Below, piece after piece: positions 41,118-53,767 of a stretch of DNA of 64,000 nt; position 1 is the first letter of the stretch, and each line of letters opens with the position of its first letter. Under the pieces are notes generated by a model. The model was not told the DNA's origin. It made no database searches and was given only the letters and a program-made list of their open reading frames with translations. Source of the stretch: Ostrinia nubilalis (taxonomy: Eukaryota; Arthropoda; Insecta; Lepidoptera; Crambidae); contig NW_026973566.1 in assembly GCF_963855985.1 (NCBI RefSeq), forward strand, positions 2,852,001 to 2,916,000. The letters are read 5' to 3'. Both the position numbers and the translations under genes were made by a program.

Positions 41118-43837
41118 GTCTGGCTGCCTTAAAGTACTACAATGGAATGCTGATGGCGTTCGGGGTAAAATTCATGAGTATAGAGTATTCAGACTCGTTA
41201 AGTCTGGTGAGTGTCTTAAGTGTTGATATTGTGGCAATTAGTGAATCCCGCCTAAGCTCTAACATATCTCTTACAACTTCGGGTTACGTAATGTACCGAC
41301 GTGATAAACATACTAAGGGTCGTGGTCAGGGTGTTGCCATACTGGTTAAAAATAACATCGAACACAGCATTGTCAGCATGCCTGATACGCAGCATCTTGA
41401 AGCCGTTGGAATCAAGTTGTTGGTGTCTGGCAGGGAACATATTTTTGTGTCAGCTTATCAGTCTCCCAATCTGCCTTTTATTACTAGTGATTTAGACATA
41501 CTACTGGCACTTGGTCAACACGTCATAGTAATGGGCGAATTTAATGCAAATCACGATCTGTGGATACCTGGAATTATAAACTCTCATGGGCGTAAACTGT
41601 TTGATCACATGCTTGCATCACATTTCTCAATTCACGCAAGCTGTACACCAACTCTCATACACTATCGTTCGGATCTTACCCCTACTAACCCCAATCTGAT
41701 CATAACTCAAAACATAAATCCAATAAGCCAAATCGAAGCACTAAATAGCCTCTCATCAAACCATTTGCCCCTTTTCTTTACTGTAGGTGACAGTCCTATA
41801 CTTAAGAAGCCTCTTAGCTACTTCAAATACAATAAGTGTGACTGGCAGACATTTCGTGATCATCTCAACAATTCTATTTCTCTGGACTCTCGCACCTGTC
41901 TAACTCGGGATGAAGTTGATGCAAGCGTAGACCTATTTAATGACTACTTGTTTGAAGCTCGTGATCAGTGTGTGCCTGTGGAGATTGGAACTGAAAGCAA
42001 AAGTACAGTACTTCCGTGGTTCATTCGCAGACTGATTAGATCTCGCAACCGTCTGCGGCGCGATCTCCTTAGTACGTTTGTTCTCGATGACAAGAGGATT
42101 ATTCGGCAGAATATAAATTCGCTTCAGAGAGTTATCAAGGATAAAATTAAAAATCACATGGATTCCGCTTGGAATAAAAAACTAGCCAAAGTCGATAACC
42201 CAAGTTCAGATATCTGGCGTGTGGTTAAATCATTAAAAACGAAGTCTGCAATTACACCCCCTTTGATTAAAGCAGATGGTACCCTGACCAACGACACTTC
42301 TGAGCAGTGCGAAGTGCTCGCCGATACCTTCCAATTAAATATGTCGCTAACCCATGATTGGCATGACCCTCAAGTGGCTTCTAAAGTTCAAGAATCTATT
42401 AACACCCTAGATGATCACAACGAAACTGGTGTAATACCTCCTCTGATACGTCCCCATGAGGTATGGACCCTTATTCGAAAACTTAAGAGATGCAAAGCTC
42501 CTGGGCAAGATAATATTCACAATGCTCTTTTAAAGAATCTGCCCCAAAAGGCTGTTGTCTACCTCACAAAAATCATGAATGATTGTTTTCGTCTCAGTTA
42601 CTTCCCCAAGATGTGGAAGTCTGCAAAAGTTATTGCAATTAGAAAACCTAATAAGGATGCAAAAATTCCTGTAAGCTATCGCCCAATAAGCCTTTTACCG
42701 GCACTAGGAAAACTTTTTGAAGCTGCTATCTACACTCGCCTTCTCAAAGTAGCTGCTCACGTGCTGCCAAATGAGCAGTTTGGTTTTAGGAATGCCCATT
42801 CCACAAGTCATCAACTGGTCAGAGTAACTGAGCATGTGTCCCATAATCTCAACTTACGGCAGTCCACGGGCATGTTTCTGCTCGACATTGAAAAAGCATT
42901 CGACACAGTATGGCACGCCGGTCTTCTTCATAAATTAATAGCCATAAATGTACCTACTCACATAGTCAAGATAATACGATCGTACCTCACTGACCGCAGT
43001 TTTAGGGTCTTTATTGGCGATACTTCCTCCCAACCGAGACACATTCTAGCCGGTGTACCCCAGGGGTCCATTCTAGGCCCCTTTCTGTACATAATATACG
43101 CACATGACATCCCCATACAGCCACACACGAGTCTAGCATGCTTCGCCGACGACACCGCATCGCTAACTTCATCCTTGGATGAAGATCTCATAATTAGCAG
43201 ATTGCAGCTGTCGTTAGATGGTCTTAAAGATTACTTCCACAAATAGAAACTAAAATTAAATGAGGCTAAAACAGAGGCAATCATGTTTTCTCGTAAACGT
43301 AGATTAACGACGAGAACCTTAAAAATAGGTGCGCATTCCATTGCCTGGAAGGACTCGGTGAAGTACCTTGGTGTTACCTTTGACCGGAAGTTAAGGTGGA
43401 CCAAACACCTATGTGACCTTAAAACTAAAGGTACATCTGCTATGATTGGCCTAAATCCCATTTTCAACCGAAATAGCCCCCTCAGCTCGACCACTAAGCT
43501 ACGCATATACACGACTCTCATAAGACCCTGCCTTACATATGCCTGCCCTATATGGAACACTACCTGCACAACTAACCACCAATCGTTACAAGTAATTCAA
43601 AATAGAGCCTTGAAAATAGCTTACAATACGAAATTTCGAACCAATTTGCTAAAATTACATGAAACCATAAATCTGTTACCATTACGTAATTACATCTTAA
43701 AACTCACTCGTAAATTCTTCGATAATGTAGCATCCCATAGTAATCCCTTAATTTATAATATTGCAGCCACGAAAATACAGGATTTATCGTATATCGATAC
43801 TTACGGCACATACCGCTTACCCCATCACTACGCATGA
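41057..43837 (+). pseudogene. Jockey LINE ORF2: endonuclease and reverse transcriptase, one stop and one frameshift
   Basis: The frame encodes an APE-type endonuclease (DIVAISESRL, GEFNANHDLW, SSNHLPLFF) and RT with CKAPGQDNIHNALL, SYRPISLLPALGK, GVPQGSILGP and CFADDTASLT. A TAG at 43244-43246 interrupts it, and the same frame continues to 43837 with the RT thumb and C-terminal region (KYLGVTFDRKLRW, PCLTYACPIWN). The true N-terminus (LKVLQWNADGVRGKIHEYRV) is in another frame at 41124-41185, so a frameshift lies near 41190-41215. The track from 41057 is therefore a fused reading, not the natural start. Otherwise it is well preserved. Confidence 0.88.
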
Positions 43838-44250
43838 CGTCGCCTTTTGTCCTGCGTATTCACACAAGACCGGTATTCTATACAAGTCCAGTATAATCTG
43901 CGCCGGCTCACGGTGTTCGGTGCTCGGTTCTAGGGACCAACAAACTTTGTCGTACTTCTTTTAAAAACTACCCGACTTGCAAAATTATTCAGTTTGTTTA
44001 TTGAATCATTCTTTAAAATATGAAGTTTACACTAAAAGCTTCATAATGTTTTTGCTTTATGTTAATCTTTTACAATTATTTGTGTTAGCTAATAGTTTTG
44101 TTTATAAATTCAGTGTAGTTAAGCTTTGAGAGGTGTTTTTGGCCTGGTGAAGTGTTATCGCATTTAAGATGTAAGTTATGCTGTATGGTATTATTTTTAT
44201 AGTGTAACTGTATAATGTGTTTTGTTTAAATAAAGAATTTTGAAAAGTAA
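43838..44250 (+). mobile_element. Jockey LINE 3' untranslated region
   Basis: AT-rich sequence following ORF2 and ending TTTAAATAAAGAATTTTGAA plus a short A-rich tail near 44250. No second copy in the window fixes the exact end. Confidence 0.55.
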
Positions 44251-44364
44251 AGTAAGTAGTTAACTGCACCAGCCGCCGGAAGTTGGAAGAAAAGCAATAA
44301 TTAATTATTTTAAATAAACTGCTTAGCGGAAAGCATCATTTATTTTACAAAATAATAATTTATG

Positions 44365-44727
44365 TGTCGCAGACGGTCATGAGTACGGACACTAAAGTGA
44401 AACGCAAGTGCGCCACCTAGCGGCGAATCGGCGCAACACCGCTTTGGCGCGCTTTGACAGAGTCGTAACGGTCACGCCGGGACGGATCGAACTCACTTTC
44501 GCTCCGGACGCCGACAAGAGAAGACATCGTCACGGAACTGTCCCACGTTTCACCTAGTGCCTATTTTATCGCTCGACGAAGTCTAGATTGTAGTACTAAG
44601 AACTAAGTGCTGATTTTGAACTCTGTATGACGATTATTAAAAGTGTTTGAACACAAGTCTTATTCTCATTGCACGAGACCCTATTTCGCCCACAATATCT
44701 GAGGTTCGAATCCCTGACGAGTCGACA
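44365..44727 (+). repeat. 5' LTR of the non-coding element
   Basis: TGTCGCAGACGGTC...GAGTCGACA, 363 bp. By eye it differs from the 3' LTR at about six positions (roughly 1.7%), so insertion is fairly recent. It contains GCGCCACCTAGCGG (44410-44423). Confidence 0.92.
44410..44423 (-). promoter_or_regulatory. CTCF-like core motif in the 5' LTR
   Basis: CCGCTAGGTGGCGC on the minus strand, matching the CTCF core except at one upstream position. The 3' LTR has the same site at 49656-49669. Confidence 0.35.
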
Positions 44728-44745
44728 TCAGAAGTGGGATCGAAT
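44728..44745 (+). other. Primer binding site (tRNA-Leu type)
   Basis: TCAGAAGTGGGATCGAA begins directly after the LTR and is complementary to the 3' part of animal tRNA-Leu (T arm and acceptor, ...TCCCACTTCTGA). It starts a few bases inside the CCA end. Confidence 0.6.
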
Positions 44746-45040
44746 CGTGCAATTGAGATCACTTTCAACGATATTGGAACCAACACGCTAATGAAGAGGC
44801 CAACATTTGCGACCAACAAAATAAGAACATACCTACCTATAACTACTACCGGCAAGCTCCTTTGGCATCCAGGAACCGCTCGCTCGCTGGTCGTTCACTG
44901 GGCCTCGACCAATGTCGTCTCACCCGGTGGGCTAGTACCGCGCTGAGGGCGGAACAGTGGTGTCAAAGTCGAGCTGAGGGTATGCCCGGAATATAACTGG
45001 CCAGAAGAATGAAGAATCAGGATAGATGACGCGGGGCGAT

Positions 45041-45216
45041 GGTCAAGCTTACAGCGTTGAACCGGCGCGGGACGGCGGTCAAGCTCACAGCGTTGGACCG
45101 GCGCAGGACGGCGGTCAAGCTCACAGCATTGGACTGGCGCGGAGTGGTGATCAAGCTCACAGCAATGGATGGCGGCGGCGGCGGTCAAGTGGAGAACATT
45201 GGACCGGCGCGGCGCG
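45041..45216 (+). repeat. 36-bp minisatellite, about five units
   Basis: Units GGTCAAGCTCACAGCGTTGG plus ACCGGCGCAGGACGGC start at 45041, 45077, 45113, 45149 and 45183. The multiple-of-three length leaves long open frames on both strands that are unlikely to be genes. Confidence 0.85.
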
Positions 45217-45520
45217 AACGAGGTTGCCCGCGAGTACTTTGGATCACAAGGGTGAGCGATATTGTTTTTCATTTGATTCTGGTGCTGAATACTTGTTGTT
45301 CTTGGTTAAAGATTATCGCCAAGATTGAGTGGCAGACGTTTCAATAATGTTACAGTAATGACCGGTATAGGTCAAACACAAGTAGTCAGCACAGAATACA
45401 TTTTATGTTGTGTAATGATTAACGATCGGATTGGAGGGATGCCCATCAGTCGAGTGCCGATTGATTAGTAATAACGATGATTTGAGTAATGGTTTTAGTG
45501 ATGTAGAGGCCACTGAGTGA

Positions 45521-45915
45521 TAGTCACAGGGATGACTACCACTATGTTCGTAATCACAGGGATGATTACATAATTTTGACTTGATGACGGACCATAGACT
45601 TTCGACTTATGACGATATCGTGATCACAGGGATGATTGCGATTAGTAATGTAGTCACAGGGATGATTACTTTATTTTGAAACCTATAGTCACAGGGATGA
45701 CTTGGGGTGTAGTGTGCAGTTACAGGGATAATTGCAATAGTAGTCACAGGGATGATTACTTTATTTTGAAACCTATAGTCACAGGGATGACTTGGGGTGT
45801 TTGTGCAATTACAGGGATAATTGCAATAGTAGTCACAGGGATGATTACTAGTGAAAGTGATTGTTACAGGGATAACATTCACTTATTTTGAGAGTCACAG
45901 GGATGGCTTTCAAAG
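45521..45915 (+). other. Array of 12 hairpins with invariant CAGGGA loop
   Basis: Twelve inverted repeats each enclose CAGGGA. Spans: 45521-45538, 45550-45569, 45619-45640, 45650-45669, 45681-45708, 45715-45736, 45739-45760, 45771-45798, 45804-45825, 45827-45850, 45855-45884, 45886-45915. Stems are 5-12 pairs and differ in sequence, yet pairing is kept: TGCAGTTA/TAATTGCA versus TGCAATTA/TAATTGCA, AAGTGATTGTTA/TAACATTCACTT, TTTTGAGAGTCA/TGGCTTTCAAAG. G-U pairs occur in several stems and the closing pair is always A-U. This pattern indicates selection on plus-strand RNA structure. The bound partner is unknown; a role in packaging or translation control of the element RNA is inference. Confidence 0.85.
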
Positions 45916-46444
45916 TTGTGGCACTTACATACCTACTATTCATGATGCTTTCTTTATATTTGACTGAACGGCACTTGTACTTTTTGGCTTTTGTCTAGTA
46001 TTTTCGTTAAAGTACGATTTATAGGACAAAGGTAGTTTTCAGTTGATGAATTTTCATGTTTTACCATCTGGTAAAAGGTAGTTGTTTGCAAATTACTATT
46101 ACGTCCAATCAAGTGATAATTTAATCTTGATTCAAATAATTTTTGGTTTGGCTCAGTGGTACAAATGGTATCAAAAAAGGGGGCCGTTAAGAACATGCAA
46201 TAAATTACGTCACGTGCTCAATCACGCGTGACCTCAGTCACAAAATATAACAGAAGACAAACTCCATACTAAACGCGCTCGAGCCACGCACACATAGACA
46301 GACACCGCTCTAGCAAGACTGTCTTGGACGAATGCGAGCGCGACGTGGCGCGACAGACGTTCGCCACACGTTCGCTGTGGTTCGCTTGAGTCACGTGCCG
46401 GATAACCGCCTGTGATATTATTTTGTTTTGCGAAATTGACGAAA

Positions 46445-46552
46445 ATGAGTGAATAGAAAAAGTCGTATTATAATTGTCCGGTATTTGGTTGCTTAAACTC
46501 ATCATTAAATACCGAATTTTCATTTTTGTAAATTACCAGTTGATTCGGGGAG
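46445..46552 (+). pseudogene. THAP-domain-like first exon (broken)
   Basis: From the ATG the frame reads YNCPVFGCLNSSLNTEFSF, resembling the start of THAP zinc-finger domains (C-x4-C with NSSLNT-type sequence), the DNA-binding domain of P transposases. It ends at GGGGAG followed by GTAAGT, a good splice donor. In-frame TAG, TAA and TGA codons make it a pseudogene. The C-x2-H half of the finger would be in a missing second exon. Confidence 0.5.
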
Positions 46553-46653
46553 GTAAGTAAGTTATTTATTTGAATTTCAATTGAAATTGAAAGCCAACTC
46601 AATTATTAGGAATATCGAATTGTTTTAGAGAGGTTTTAGGAATTATTGGATAA

Positions 46654-46849
46654 CTAGCTTTTGCCCGCGGCTTCACCCGCGTGAAATTTAGTTTGTCACA
46701 GATCGTCATAAATTATAGCCTATATGTTATTCAGGGTTGTAAACAATAATACTGTAAAGTTACATCAAAATCCGTTCTGTAGTTTTTGCGTGAAAGAGCA
46801 ACAAACATCCAGACATCCAAACTATCGCATTTATAATATTATAGTTAGA
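46654..46849 (-). mobile_element. Small Helitron (CTAGCTTTTGCCCGCGG type)
   Basis: On the minus strand it starts TCTAACTATAATATTATAAA and ends CCGCGGGCAAAAGCTAG, lying between A and T with no duplication. This is a very common lepidopteran non-autonomous Helitron. 196 bp, no coding capacity. Confidence 0.85.
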
Positions 46850-47511
46850 TAATAGTGTCAACCACTCAACTAAATACTACTTTCTTCTCGTGTATTTGTT
46901 TGCAAACTATTACTATAATAACGTACTAAATATAAATAAGTATATGTTATTGTCTTTTTATTTAACATTTTTCTATCATAACCAAATAAACGCAACACAT
47001 GACAAGCCAACCCTAGCGCGACGGCCGAGCGTGCGAGCGAGAGAGGTATGCAAAGCGAGGTACATACATGAGTTTACCTTCTGTTATATTTTGTGCCTCA
47101 GTTGAGTTTACATTGAATGAAGATGTTATTGTAAATTGTTTGATTCCTAGGTGGTAGGTTCACTACTGATGTGAATATTATCGATACGGACGTACGTGAC
47201 GGATGTAAATAGACTAAAACTATTAGAATTGCTTAAATAGACTTCCTGAATTCCTTGTCGGTTTACCTTGTAGGTACCTACTCGTTTAGTAGAATACGGG
47301 CGGTGAGCTTAAAATAAGATTTCATCTTAGGAAAGTAGCAGCCTTGCCACTTTGCACTTGCGTACCTACTATTCATGATCAATTGAGAAGAATGCCATAG
47401 GGTTATGTACCAGTCTAAAGTTGAAGTCGAGGTACATGCTGATCACAGTTGTGGTGATGATGATTATTTTTCTGTAATGGGAACTCGAGTTTGCTCTTGA
47501 GCCGTAAATCG

Positions 47512-47601
47512 TGGTGTGTAGTCGGTGAGTGATGCACACGGTGGCAGAGGACGTGGTCTTGGTAGACCGTAGTGTGTAGTCCGTGAGTGATGCACACAGT
47601 G
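47512..47601 (+). repeat. Duplicated hairpin-forming segment
   Basis: GTGTGTAGTCGGTGAGTGAT and GCACAC occur at 47512-47543 and, with one change in the loop, at 47571-47601. Each copy can pair GTGTG with CACAC. Confidence 0.5.
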
Positions 47602-48237
47602 TTGTGATGGTACTTAATGGTACAGTTTCAGTAATGGTGATTACTGTGGCATATGGAGATACTCGAGTGTCCTACGAATTTATTAGTGACTAAGATTATT
47701 GAAGTGTTTCATGTTACATAGCCCTGGCTACTTCTATGTTATTAGAGTTGATAATGTATCAAGTGTCGATTTTAGAAAATAATTAGAATTGAGTTAGTTT
47801 ACTTTCATGTTTTAATAGCAGTGATTATGGTAGCGATTGGTAGTGTAATTATGAACATTGGATTGCAATGAAATTAGAACGCCTGAGGTAGACGTGTCTA
47901 ATGTAGTACAAAAATGCTAGATAAAGTATTTGGTAGAAGAGTGTACTTGATGGAGGTATATTGCTTTTTCATGGATGATAATGAATCCCCTACATTCATA
48001 TGGAGATGGACCTTAAACCAGTTGAAGGATTAGTCGATCAAAGCTCAATTATTTTAAAGTTCTTTTTCTCAGTATCGTAGTATGCAAGTCACTCAGATTG
48101 CTTGCATCTCCCGTGCATTCGTAGTCGTAAGCGTAAATCGGGCTTGATTTCCCGTAGCAGTGCGGCCATGACTGTGAATGGCATGCGTTTGGCGGGGAGG
48201 TGTAAACGATCGCTGTGAGTCCACCGGATTGTTTGTA

Positions 48238-48342
48238 TTCGGGTACCGGAGGGAGGTAGCCCATGATTGTGTTGTATTTGGGTACTGGATGAAAGTAGCC
48301 CATGATGTGTTGTATTCGGGTACCGGATGGAGGTAGCCCATG
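48238..48342 (+). repeat. 39-bp tandem repeat, three hairpin units
   Basis: Units at 48238, 48277 and 48315 each have GGGTACC/GGTAGCCC type arms around a 7-nt purine-rich loop. In unit 2 the C-G pair next to the loop is T-A (GGGTACT/AGTAGCCC), a compensatory change. Confidence 0.6.
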
Positions 48343-49315
48343 TTTGTGATATGGTGTAAGAAACAATCGGATGGAGATGAAGAGTATTGTTTACTGCTTT
48401 GCTGACCTTAGTTATTATGATGATGTAGTTTATTGAGTTTTGATGGACCTCAATCTCTATTGTGTTTTGATAATGTATCGAGCGATCGCTAGGTACATAG
48501 TACCATACGTGCCTCGCTGTATGGCACCTGCCGCGTTTCCGAATAGTCATCCGTTAAAATCTAACGGATCGTTGATTATTTCGTATTAAATTCTAATTGA
48601 TTGTGGGAATAGACGTCTATACTGCAAATAGAGACTAATATTTCGAGTTTTCCCGCCATGTCAGCCCCACTTTATAATGAGTCAACCCATCTACCTTCGC
48701 TTCAAATTGTGGAAATCTATGATGGTGACCGTTATGTTTTAAGATCCCTAATTAACAAACGTGTATTGAGTATTCACATGATCGTGTTAGGAAGACCCCA
48801 GAAGGCCCAGTACCTATTGAGATTGTGAGGGAAACGAGTTGGATGACTAAATTCCATCTAGTTAATTACAAGCACAGGTTTCTCAATTGTTTGGTCGGAG
48901 ATTGTACCAGGATGCCGTAGCCGTAGCCTATTAGAAACCGGTAACTGCTCTGAGTAGTCCTTGGGAATTCGGTAGTACGATAGTTCTGGGTGGTGCAGTA
49001 GGATCTGGCAGTGTGTAGCTAAGATCATAAAGACATTGGTTGATTGACTTAGGCTCCCGAGGTAGGGTAGCAAAATGTGGACCGCGATTGTGATACCTGG
49101 GTGGGACTCATTCAATTTTTGAAGTAATTTTTGGTAATGATGATTTACCACATGGTCTTAGTGACTTCAATGTAGCAATTATTAGGAATTGTGAATAGTA
49201 GTGATTGGATTCCTAAAAGCTAGGTAGTTTCTAATAGATAGCTATGGTTACTAGTTAGAAACACTAGACATCAACTTGGATGGCTTTTATTTGGAAGAGT
49301 GGATAGAGTATAGGA

Positions 49316-49478
49316 AACTAGTAGTAGAAAGAGTAACTAGTAGTAGAAAGAGTAACTAGTAGTAGAAAGAGTAACTAGTAGTAGAAAGAGTAACTAGTAG
49401 TAGAAAGAGTAACTAGTAGTAGAAAGAGTAACTAGTAGTAGAAAGAGTAACTAGTAGTAGAAAGAGTATCTAGTAGTA
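49316..49478 (+). repeat. 19-bp tandem repeat, eight units
   Basis: GTAGTAGAAAGAGTAACTA repeated almost without change, just upstream of the 3' LTR, in the place a polypurine-rich tract would be expected. Confidence 0.85.
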
Positions 49479-49610
49479 CTGAATGTTTAGTTTCCTCATT
49501 TCTGAAAGCACATAAGTTGCTTGAAATAGGATTGGCCGAGCGGATACTGTGCTGTTCTTTTGGTTTTTTTCAGATGATCACACGAGGACGTGTGAGACGC
49601 AGGATGGCCG

Positions 49611-49973
49611 TGTCGCAGACGGTCATGAGTACGGACACTAAAGTGAAAAGCAAGTGCGCCACCTAGCGGCGAATCGGCGCAACACCGCTTTGGCGCGCTT
49701 TGACAGAGTCGTAACGGTCACGCCGGGACGGATCGAACTCACTTTCGCTCCGGACGCCGACAAGAGAAGACATCGTCACGGAACTGTCCCACGTTTCACC
49801 TAGTGCCTATTTTATCGCTCGACGAAGTCTAGATTGTAGTACTAAGAACTAAGTGCTGATTTTGAACTCTGTTTGACGATTATTAAAAGTGTTCGAACAC
49901 AAGTCTCATTCTCATTGCACGATACCCTATTTCGCCCACAATATCTGAGGTTCGAATCCCTGACGAGCCGACA
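49611..49973 (+). repeat. 3' LTR of the non-coding element
   Basis: TGTCGCAGACGGTC...GAGCCGACA, 363 bp, same length as the 5' LTR, followed by TATG. CTCF-like motif at 49656-49669. Confidence 0.92.
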
Positions 49974-49977
49974 TATG

Positions 49978-50219
49978 AATAAATCAACACCGGAAACCGT
50001 CATTTATGTTTAACAAAAATTAATTAAGCAGAAGTAGCTGCCACCGGAAAGCGTCGTAATAATCAATAATTTTGACTACTATAACTTATCACAGCATCAC
50101 TAATTTAAATAATGGGAATAAATATCAACTAGAACATAACCATTTCATGTAAAATTTCTAAAAAAATGCAAACAAGAATAGATATTTACAATTTACTCTA
50201 ACAGTAATATGAGTTTTAT
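49978..50219. other. AT-rich spacer
   Basis: ACCGGAAAGCGTCGTAAT near 50043 resembles AGCGGAAAGCATCATTTAT near 44324 left of the LTR element, possibly a diverged repeat. Nothing else was seen. Confidence 0.35.
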
Positions 50220-50333
50220 GCCCGTTTTCACCATTAATCCCAAATTTTTAAGTGACCCCTATAAAAACAAAATTCCTGTTATGTATTACCATAGGGGTCA
50301 CTTACAAATTAGGAATTGATGGTGAAAACGGGC
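50220..50333. mobile_element. Short fold-back element, 114 bp
   Basis: GCCCGTTTTCACCATTAATC and its inverse GGAATTGATGGTGAAAACGGGC (50312-50333, in part) form two ~45-bp arms that meet at ATAGGGGTCACTT, leaving about 25 bp of loop. This is a small MITE or palindrome with no coding capacity. Confidence 0.7.

Positions 50334-53767
<3,434 letters not shown>

Follow-up and report, generated by a model that had tools for sequence, protein, structure and literature searches.

Within the stretch of DNA analysed here (the window, 64,000 nucleotides), a long terminal repeat (LTR) element that encodes no reverse transcriptase carries a row of hairpins that share the loop CAGGGA. What could such a row do for the element, and what might read it? 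Hairpins with one loop on varying, mostly matching stems have the look of a strip where a protein could dock that aids the travel of the element. The family concerned was recently active and offers a compact, repeated and easily mutated RNA signal. It also has a natural comparison in a sister family, likewise active recently, whose LTRs and leader are different and whose array has decayed; this makes the question directly testable.

A protein-less LTR element with recent copies

The element that carries the array has the following parts.

44361..44364 (no strand): target site duplication, left, sequence TATG
44365..44727 (+): 5' LTR, 363 bp, TGTCGC...CGACA, 98.4% identity with the 3' LTR
44703..44746 (+): U5 tail, containing a tRNA T-arm-like GGTTCGAATCCC, with a predicted fold-back onto the primer-binding site
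44728..44745 (+): primer-binding site, TCAGAAGTGGGATCGAAT, also present, with at most one mismatch, in further LTR elements of this genome
45030..45212 (+): 36-bp tandem repeat, about five copies, upstream of the hairpins
46238..47095 (no strand): nested insertion, 858 bp, missing here in the other copies that span the site
48227..48348 (+): three repeats of 38 bp; every one contains the hairpin GGGTAC(C/T)..(G/A)GTAGCCC, one pair of which is changed on both sides
49611..49973 (+): 3' LTR, 363 bp
49974..49977 (no strand): target site duplication, right, sequence TATG

The preliminary description had called this a non-coding LTR element, and the paired LTRs and TATG duplication, together with the absence of coding matches in Pfam and tblastn searches, agree with that. 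Ten of the 21 frames of at least 70 amino acids in the element were scanned and none scored above a Pfam cut-off, although one gave a weak sub-threshold match; tblastn with eight retroelement proteins of the window found no match in the element below E=1. Over 15 copies the longest frame measures 123-208 amino acids.

The genome searched comprises 495 Mb in 52 contigs. Our impression is of an insect or lepidopteran host, and a 264-aa frame queried for the host taxon gave no match. Arrays lie in at least 40 places, the window copy among them (40 of 87 candidates scored), and close matches to the LTR also number at least 40 (40 of 155 scored); the other 39 arrays contain 11-19 CAGGGA words each. 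We took 20 copies with their flanks, 15 with two full LTRs and five without a full pair. Among the 15, the two LTRs are identical in 12 copies and show one difference in three (gap columns uncounted), and 14 have a clean 4-bp duplication (the LTR match of L017 is two bases short). Several copies are about 4.8 kb long. Because 12 of the 15 LTR pairs are identical and no coding sequence was found, the family has been mobile in recent times while lacking its own proteins, from which we infer that the element must be moved in trans.

The primer-binding site resembles the complement of the 3' end of a tRNA-Leu, and the fold-back of the U5 tail on it resembles the retroviral U5 stem. The primer site that follows the LTR reads CATCAGAATTGGGATCGAA in many copies and CATCAGAAGTGGGATCGAA in a few, including the window copy, as if two tRNA primers were in use. 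Weak inverted repeats can be seen by eye inside the 36-bp repeats (45030-45212), and sequence similar to the 858-bp nested element is present within three other loci (L012, L014 and L021). In the hairpin of 48227-48348, U-A replaces C-G; these alternatives are found again across 20 loci and the window copy, with 21, 18 and 15 occurrences of the three main forms. Seven of the 40 scored array places lie on contig C31 (about one expected by length) and two on C32 (0.4 expected); our guess is that C31/C32 represents a repeat-rich, perhaps sex-limited chromosome.

Twelve hairpins with one loop

All 12 CAGGGA words in 45521-45915 on the plus strand are hexaloops closed by an A-U pair, on stems of 5-13 contiguous pairs.

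45521..45538 (+): hairpin 1, 6 contiguous pairs, loop 45527-45532, with an A-C imperfection
45550..45569 (+): hairpin 2, 7 pairs; absent from the predicted whole-array fold
45617..45642 (+): hairpin 3, 10 pairs, two G-U
45650..45669 (+): hairpin 4, 7 pairs, one G-U
45687..45702 (+): hairpin 5, 5 pairs, then a 2x2 internal loop and more pairs; absent from the predicted whole-array fold
45715..45736 (+): hairpin 6, 8 pairs, one G-U
45739..45760 (+): hairpin 7, 8 pairs, one G-U
45777..45792 (+): hairpin 8, 5 pairs, 2x2 internal loop; copy of hairpin 5
45804..45825 (+): hairpin 9, 8 pairs; copy of hairpin 6 with A-U in place of G-U
45827..45850 (+): hairpin 10, 9 pairs, one G-U
45862..45877 (+): hairpin 11, 5 pairs, a U-U mismatch and 6 pairs beyond it
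45885..45916 (+): hairpin 12, 13 pairs, three G-U; the longest stem

It had been claimed that an inverted repeat encloses every CAGGGA of the block and that the closing pair is always A-U; both statements hold for 12 of 12, and the 17 remaining CAGGGA words of the window (eight on the plus and nine on the minus strand) have only 0-2 flanking pairs. Two further claims need amending. The long stem with three G-U pairs does have three, but comprises 13 pairs rather than 12 (45885-45916), and pairing in all stems is true of the 5-13 contiguous pairs, with imperfections in units 1 (A-C), 11 (U-U) and 5 and 8 (the 2x2 loop). CAGGGA is the commonest plus-strand hexaloop on stems of at least five pairs, with 12 occurrences against five for the runner-up word, a long CA run being excluded from this count. 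That run, at 53257-53764 of the window, is a perfect (CA)n of 254 copies.

Stems of this kind are a property of the arrays. Inside the arrays of the 20 copies, 248 of 254 CAGGGA words have a stem of at least five pairs, compared with 1 of 60 elsewhere in the same loci. The viral control, 34 viral contigs chosen for three clustered ACAGGGAT, has such a stem at 1 of 407 words, and the baseline for any hexaloop is 549 of 63,930 window positions (0.86%). These three controls indicate that repetition of CAGGGA does not by itself produce stems. We also considered the viral contigs as relatives of the array and rejected them, the displayed matched stretches looking tandem or collagen-like with that one stem in 407 words. 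The hairpin array itself is confirmed and well supported.

The units are not all independent of one another. Units 4, 7 and 10, units 5 and 8, and units 6 and 9 are near copies through a roughly 90-bp tandem duplication (45650-45849, 97%), and for this reason the array has about eight independent stems.

Covariation of stems and constraint on loops

The preliminary description held that the loop is fixed while the stems vary and covary, and the alignment of the units upholds this. Over ten pairs in the 12 units (11 distinct rows), two-sided changes occur at eight. The covariation score is 0.613 against 0.279 for shuffled units, a value that 0 of 500 shuffles reach, and the best slid control gives 0.191; duplication (90-bp period, 97%) has made the units kin to one another, and kinship alone can raise such scores. 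For the 11 distinct units, 88.2% of cells over the ten pairs are paired, against 71.7% after shuffling. Four of five shuffle measures were reached by no shuffle, and the fifth, the count of further pair types, by 35 of 500. Units differ from one another at a mean of about 45% over 14 inner stem columns and not at all in the loop, whose constancy is partly a matter of selection because the units were chosen by their exact loop. Simple tandem duplication, named earlier as a possible account of the hairpins, explains some of the units and leaves the covarying stems unexplained.

We scanned the 40 arrays for good stems whose loop departs from CAGGGA at no more than two positions; apart from false, shifted fits, this yielded four loop variants, each confined to one copy. 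We then counted variants by column, dropping columns with fewer than 20 letters, so that hairpins unique to the longer arrays are left out of the counts. Variants common to at least two of the 40 arrays number 0 over 78 loop columns, 5 over 182 stem columns and 18 over 249 linker columns; singleton variants number 5, 17 and 28, respectively, in the same columns. The numbers are small, and they suggest constraint during the time when the main family was active. Uncompensated stem changes among copies had been named as evidence that would speak against the hairpins. Compared against the unit lists, three of the five shared stem variants in the main family keep the pair and two break it, a result that falls on both sides.

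Strand and predicted folding

On the plus strand the left LTR is followed by the primer-binding site, which identifies this strand as sense and places the hairpins in sense RNA. The make-up of the stems agrees with the earlier reading that they act in plus-strand RNA: among the 19 stem types that at least two copies share, the six innermost pairs include 11 G-U, no A-C and six other mismatches (13, two and nine when eight pairs are counted). All 36 stem types together give 29 G-U, one A-C and 12 others over six pairs, and 38, five and 22 over eight. This bias fits plus-strand RNA and is a tendency, not a test, since the stem types are non-independent.

Folding energy was set aside as strand evidence. 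On the plus strand, 45490-45930 folds better than every one of 100 dinucleotide shuffles (z -4.95), and the minus-strand fold of the array also beats its own (z -7.24); 150-base tiles of the plus strand are uneven, with z from +0.67 to -5.20, and the array stands out only in part. When the plus strand of the entire array is folded, 10 of the 12 hairpins are predicted, and different pairings take the place of units 2 and 5. Over the 40 arrays, 463 of the 562 words with usable flanks are exact hexaloops in the minimum-energy fold.

The palindromes could in principle be an artefact at the level of DNA, made by tandem duplication and hairpin-primed copying and without any function in RNA. The 90-bp duplication and the better-than-shuffled fold of the minus strand are what such an origin would leave. 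However, it does not account for the preference of G-U over A-C, for the eight of ten pairs changed on both sides, or for the viral contigs, where the same repeated word has a stem at only 1 of 407 sites. We consider this explanation highly improbable.

A sister family with a decayed array

The sister family (L048 and L049) has different LTRs, of about 439 bp, and related internal sequence (78-96% in pieces). A query with its LTR and leader gave at least 42 match rows (40 of 141 candidates scored). In a sample of 20 copies, 17 have two exact CAGGGA and two have one each (L067 and L073), while L068 has one exact loop and one altered. Most sister stems are of five pairs and look like arms of main-family units 2 and 4, and of units 5 and 12, joined at the loop; a piece of the right arm of main-family unit 1 adjoins the sister's own leader. 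Judged from these letters, the sister family is probably a deletion derivative of the main family. The check for uncompensated changes comes out against the hairpins here, most stems being broken. Those of L048 are not predicted to form, and its score for Smaug-type sites (described below) is 0.02.

One sister copy has an LTR pair identical over 439 aligned bases, so the sister family too has moved recently. It did so with hairpins that prediction leaves unfolded. The array is therefore dispensable at least at times, unless the sister's leader, which is different, provides a signal instead.

The search for a helper element

The earlier suggestion was that the array captures the Gag of another element. 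Pairs of ACAGGGAT spaced 28-45 apart occur at 51 places in a full listing (11 in the reversed control), 48 of them main-family arrays by their letters and three other repeats without hairpins; this pattern is blind to arrays with shorter spacings only. Pairs spaced 12-42 apart gave 616 matches against 31 in the reversed control, and among about 100 of these (C1 to part of C8) two are sister copies and the rest look like the main family.

The primer-binding site offered another route. Eleven primer-site places are unlike both the common form of the main family and its known copies. We fetched six, namely four coding Ty3-like elements (L050, L051, L053 and L055), L052, which is without a long frame, and L054, which is main-family sequence ending just before the array. 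The four coding elements have nearly the same primer-binding site as our element, and L055 has a reverse transcriptase domain. In the roughly 3 kb read from the primer site, none of the four contains a CAGGGA hairpin. A partner defined by LTR similarity was rejected among them, as their LTRs match over 20-21 bp at the primer site only. In L050, L051 and L055 an open frame passes through the primer-binding site (as TSEVGS or SSEVGS), and hence starts before it.

Thus, no coding element with an array was seen among the listed matches or in the 3 kb of these four elements, which weakens the proposed capture of Gag, and the recently active sister with a degenerate array not predicted to fold weakens it further. 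We still regard direct packaging as a possible, if doubtful, function: the nucleocapsid of an autonomous Ty3-like Gag would read the G-rich loops, and many loops would give avidity for particles. Such a signal suits an element that apparently must be moved in trans, that shares its primer-binding site almost exactly with coding Ty3-like elements, and whose CAGGGA count varies between 11 and 19, yet with no loop variant shared. Against it stand the coding elements themselves, which lack the hairpin over the stretch read and resemble the family only at the primer site of their LTRs, the 48 of 51 pair places that are the family's own arrays (the other three being without hairpins), and the sister that moved with a decayed array, although its leader differs as well.

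A host protein as a possible reader of the loop

On its letters, the loop equally fits a host target that the preliminary description did not consider, the Smaug recognition element (SRE). According to PMC4053848, the SRE consensus is a CNGGN0-4 loop (CNGG at the 5' end of a loop of 4-8 bases) on a non-specific stem, and the preferred targets of Smaug have a loop of five bases with U in second place and G immediately 5' of it. By pairing, all 12 units have CNGG at the 5' end of a loop of 4-8 bases. The favoured features, which are preferences and not requirements, are absent from all 12, each unit having A at position 2, A before the loop and six loop bases; positions 2, 5 and 6, which are free in the consensus, are fixed in 12 of 12.

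We scored SRE-like sites with a simplified version of the method given in PMC4053848 (three windows, 300 samples each). Ten of the 12 units score above 0.3, units 2 and 5 falling below. The plus strand of 42751-47500 scores 8.14, against 0.00-1.25 in 19 other combinations of tile and strand, and ten of the 39 other copies score 8.35-10.78 in sense and 0.01-2.40 in antisense. Altering the loop word in nine ways brought the score of 44365-47500 from 8.19 down to 0.00-1.05. The four coding Ty3-like stretches score 0.00-1.01. Because the loop meets CNGGN0-4 and the sites stand on non-specific stems, Smaug, a SAM-domain protein, is the likeliest single candidate.

Our best guess is that the array routes the RNA to repressed granules and helper Gag particles by way of Smaug, Gag or another reader of the loop. 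A loop-reading protein would occupy the hairpins of the row jointly. If that protein is Smaug, it would shield the RNA from ribosomes and recruit Me31B/DDX6 and Belle/DDX3, and the RNA would thereby be placed where the Gag of another Ty3-like element assembles and be packaged in trans. Smaug binding can also cause RNA decay. Decay by this route would harm the element and counts against Smaug as the reader, as do the bases that Smaug does not prefer, the constancy of positions left free by the consensus, the two units (2 and 5) without a predicted hairpin, and the sister's recent movement.

We infer the chain from Smaug to packaging by analogy with the following. The Smaug complex contains Me31B and Belle (PMC10164591). 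In yeast Ty3 assembly, P-body factors including Dhh1/DDX6 and Ded1/DDX3 are reported to associate with Ty3 and to be required for the assembly of its particles (PMC4589538), and withdrawal from translation may enlarge the pool of RNA that is packaged (PMC4974528). We therefore offer only tentatively the reading that the RNA of this LARD-like retrotransposon, which lacks proteins and has been active recently, presents its hairpins as a docking array to Smaug and is packaged in trans. The stronger version, an evolved tandem Smaug-binding array by which the host machinery that represses maternal mRNAs pulls the RNA to the granules where a helper's particles assemble, we think rather unlikely; if it were true, a selfish element would be steered by a developmental repressor of its host.

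Recognition by Gag itself or by some other host protein is about as likely as recognition by Smaug. Another RNA-binding protein of the host might read the hexaloop together with its A-U closing pair and serve the export, stability or germ-line localisation of the unspliced RNA. Across all 12 units neither the six loop bases nor the closing pair varies, a constancy that goes beyond the SRE consensus, on stems that differ by about 45% over 14 columns. On the other hand, a scan of 44000-50300 against Rfam gave no match at E<=1, and searches of open-licence literature on hexaloops showed no protein for exactly the CAGGGA loop. We hold this explanation to be possible and somewhat doubtful.

Smaug and its relatives could also work against the element, with the hairpins a liability that the host exploits and that is retained only because the copies are young. 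Repression of hepatitis B virus by SAMD4, acting through an SRE, has been reported (PMC9893680), and the sister spread as well with its array decayed. However, arrays of up to 19 CAGGGA with no shared loop variant are unlike a burden in the course of being shed, and restriction by the host seems to us improbable.

Comparison with known systems

The iron-responsive element has a CAGWGN hexaloop on a five-pair upper stem, with a bulged C five pairs below. The hexaloop described here likewise starts with CAG, but its fourth base is G and not U or A, and no bulged C was seen in the stems, so that this identity was rejected; Rfam gave no match either.

Helenus and other terminal-repeat retrotransposons in miniature (TRIM) are, like this element, non-coding animal LTR elements with 4-bp duplications, and this LTR has a tRNA-like GGTTCGAATCC. 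In PMC10886601, the longest Helenus is 1263 bp and has a tRNA-like sequence in its LTR. The present element differs in its length of about 4.8 kb and in that only a T-arm-like stretch was noticed; a box-B-like stretch is visible by eye at 44703-44713, where ARAGORN calls no tRNA.

Large retrotransposon derivatives (LARDs) are non-autonomous LTR retrotransposons moved in trans. Two LTRs, a primer site, a 4-bp target duplication and a protein-less internal region of about 4 kb are common to them and to our element. The tandem array of hairpins with one loop sets it apart, and searches of open-licence literature showed nothing like it for a LARD or any other retrotransposon.

The array itself is most readily compared with the SREs read by Smaug and Vts1, as in the nanos and Hsp83 mRNAs. 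In both, a loop of 4-8 bases starts with CNGG and stands on a non-specific stem, and there are several sites per RNA. Unlike those SREs, the hairpins described here lack the favoured features, have every loop base fixed, and are borne by a transposon, 11-19 in a row.
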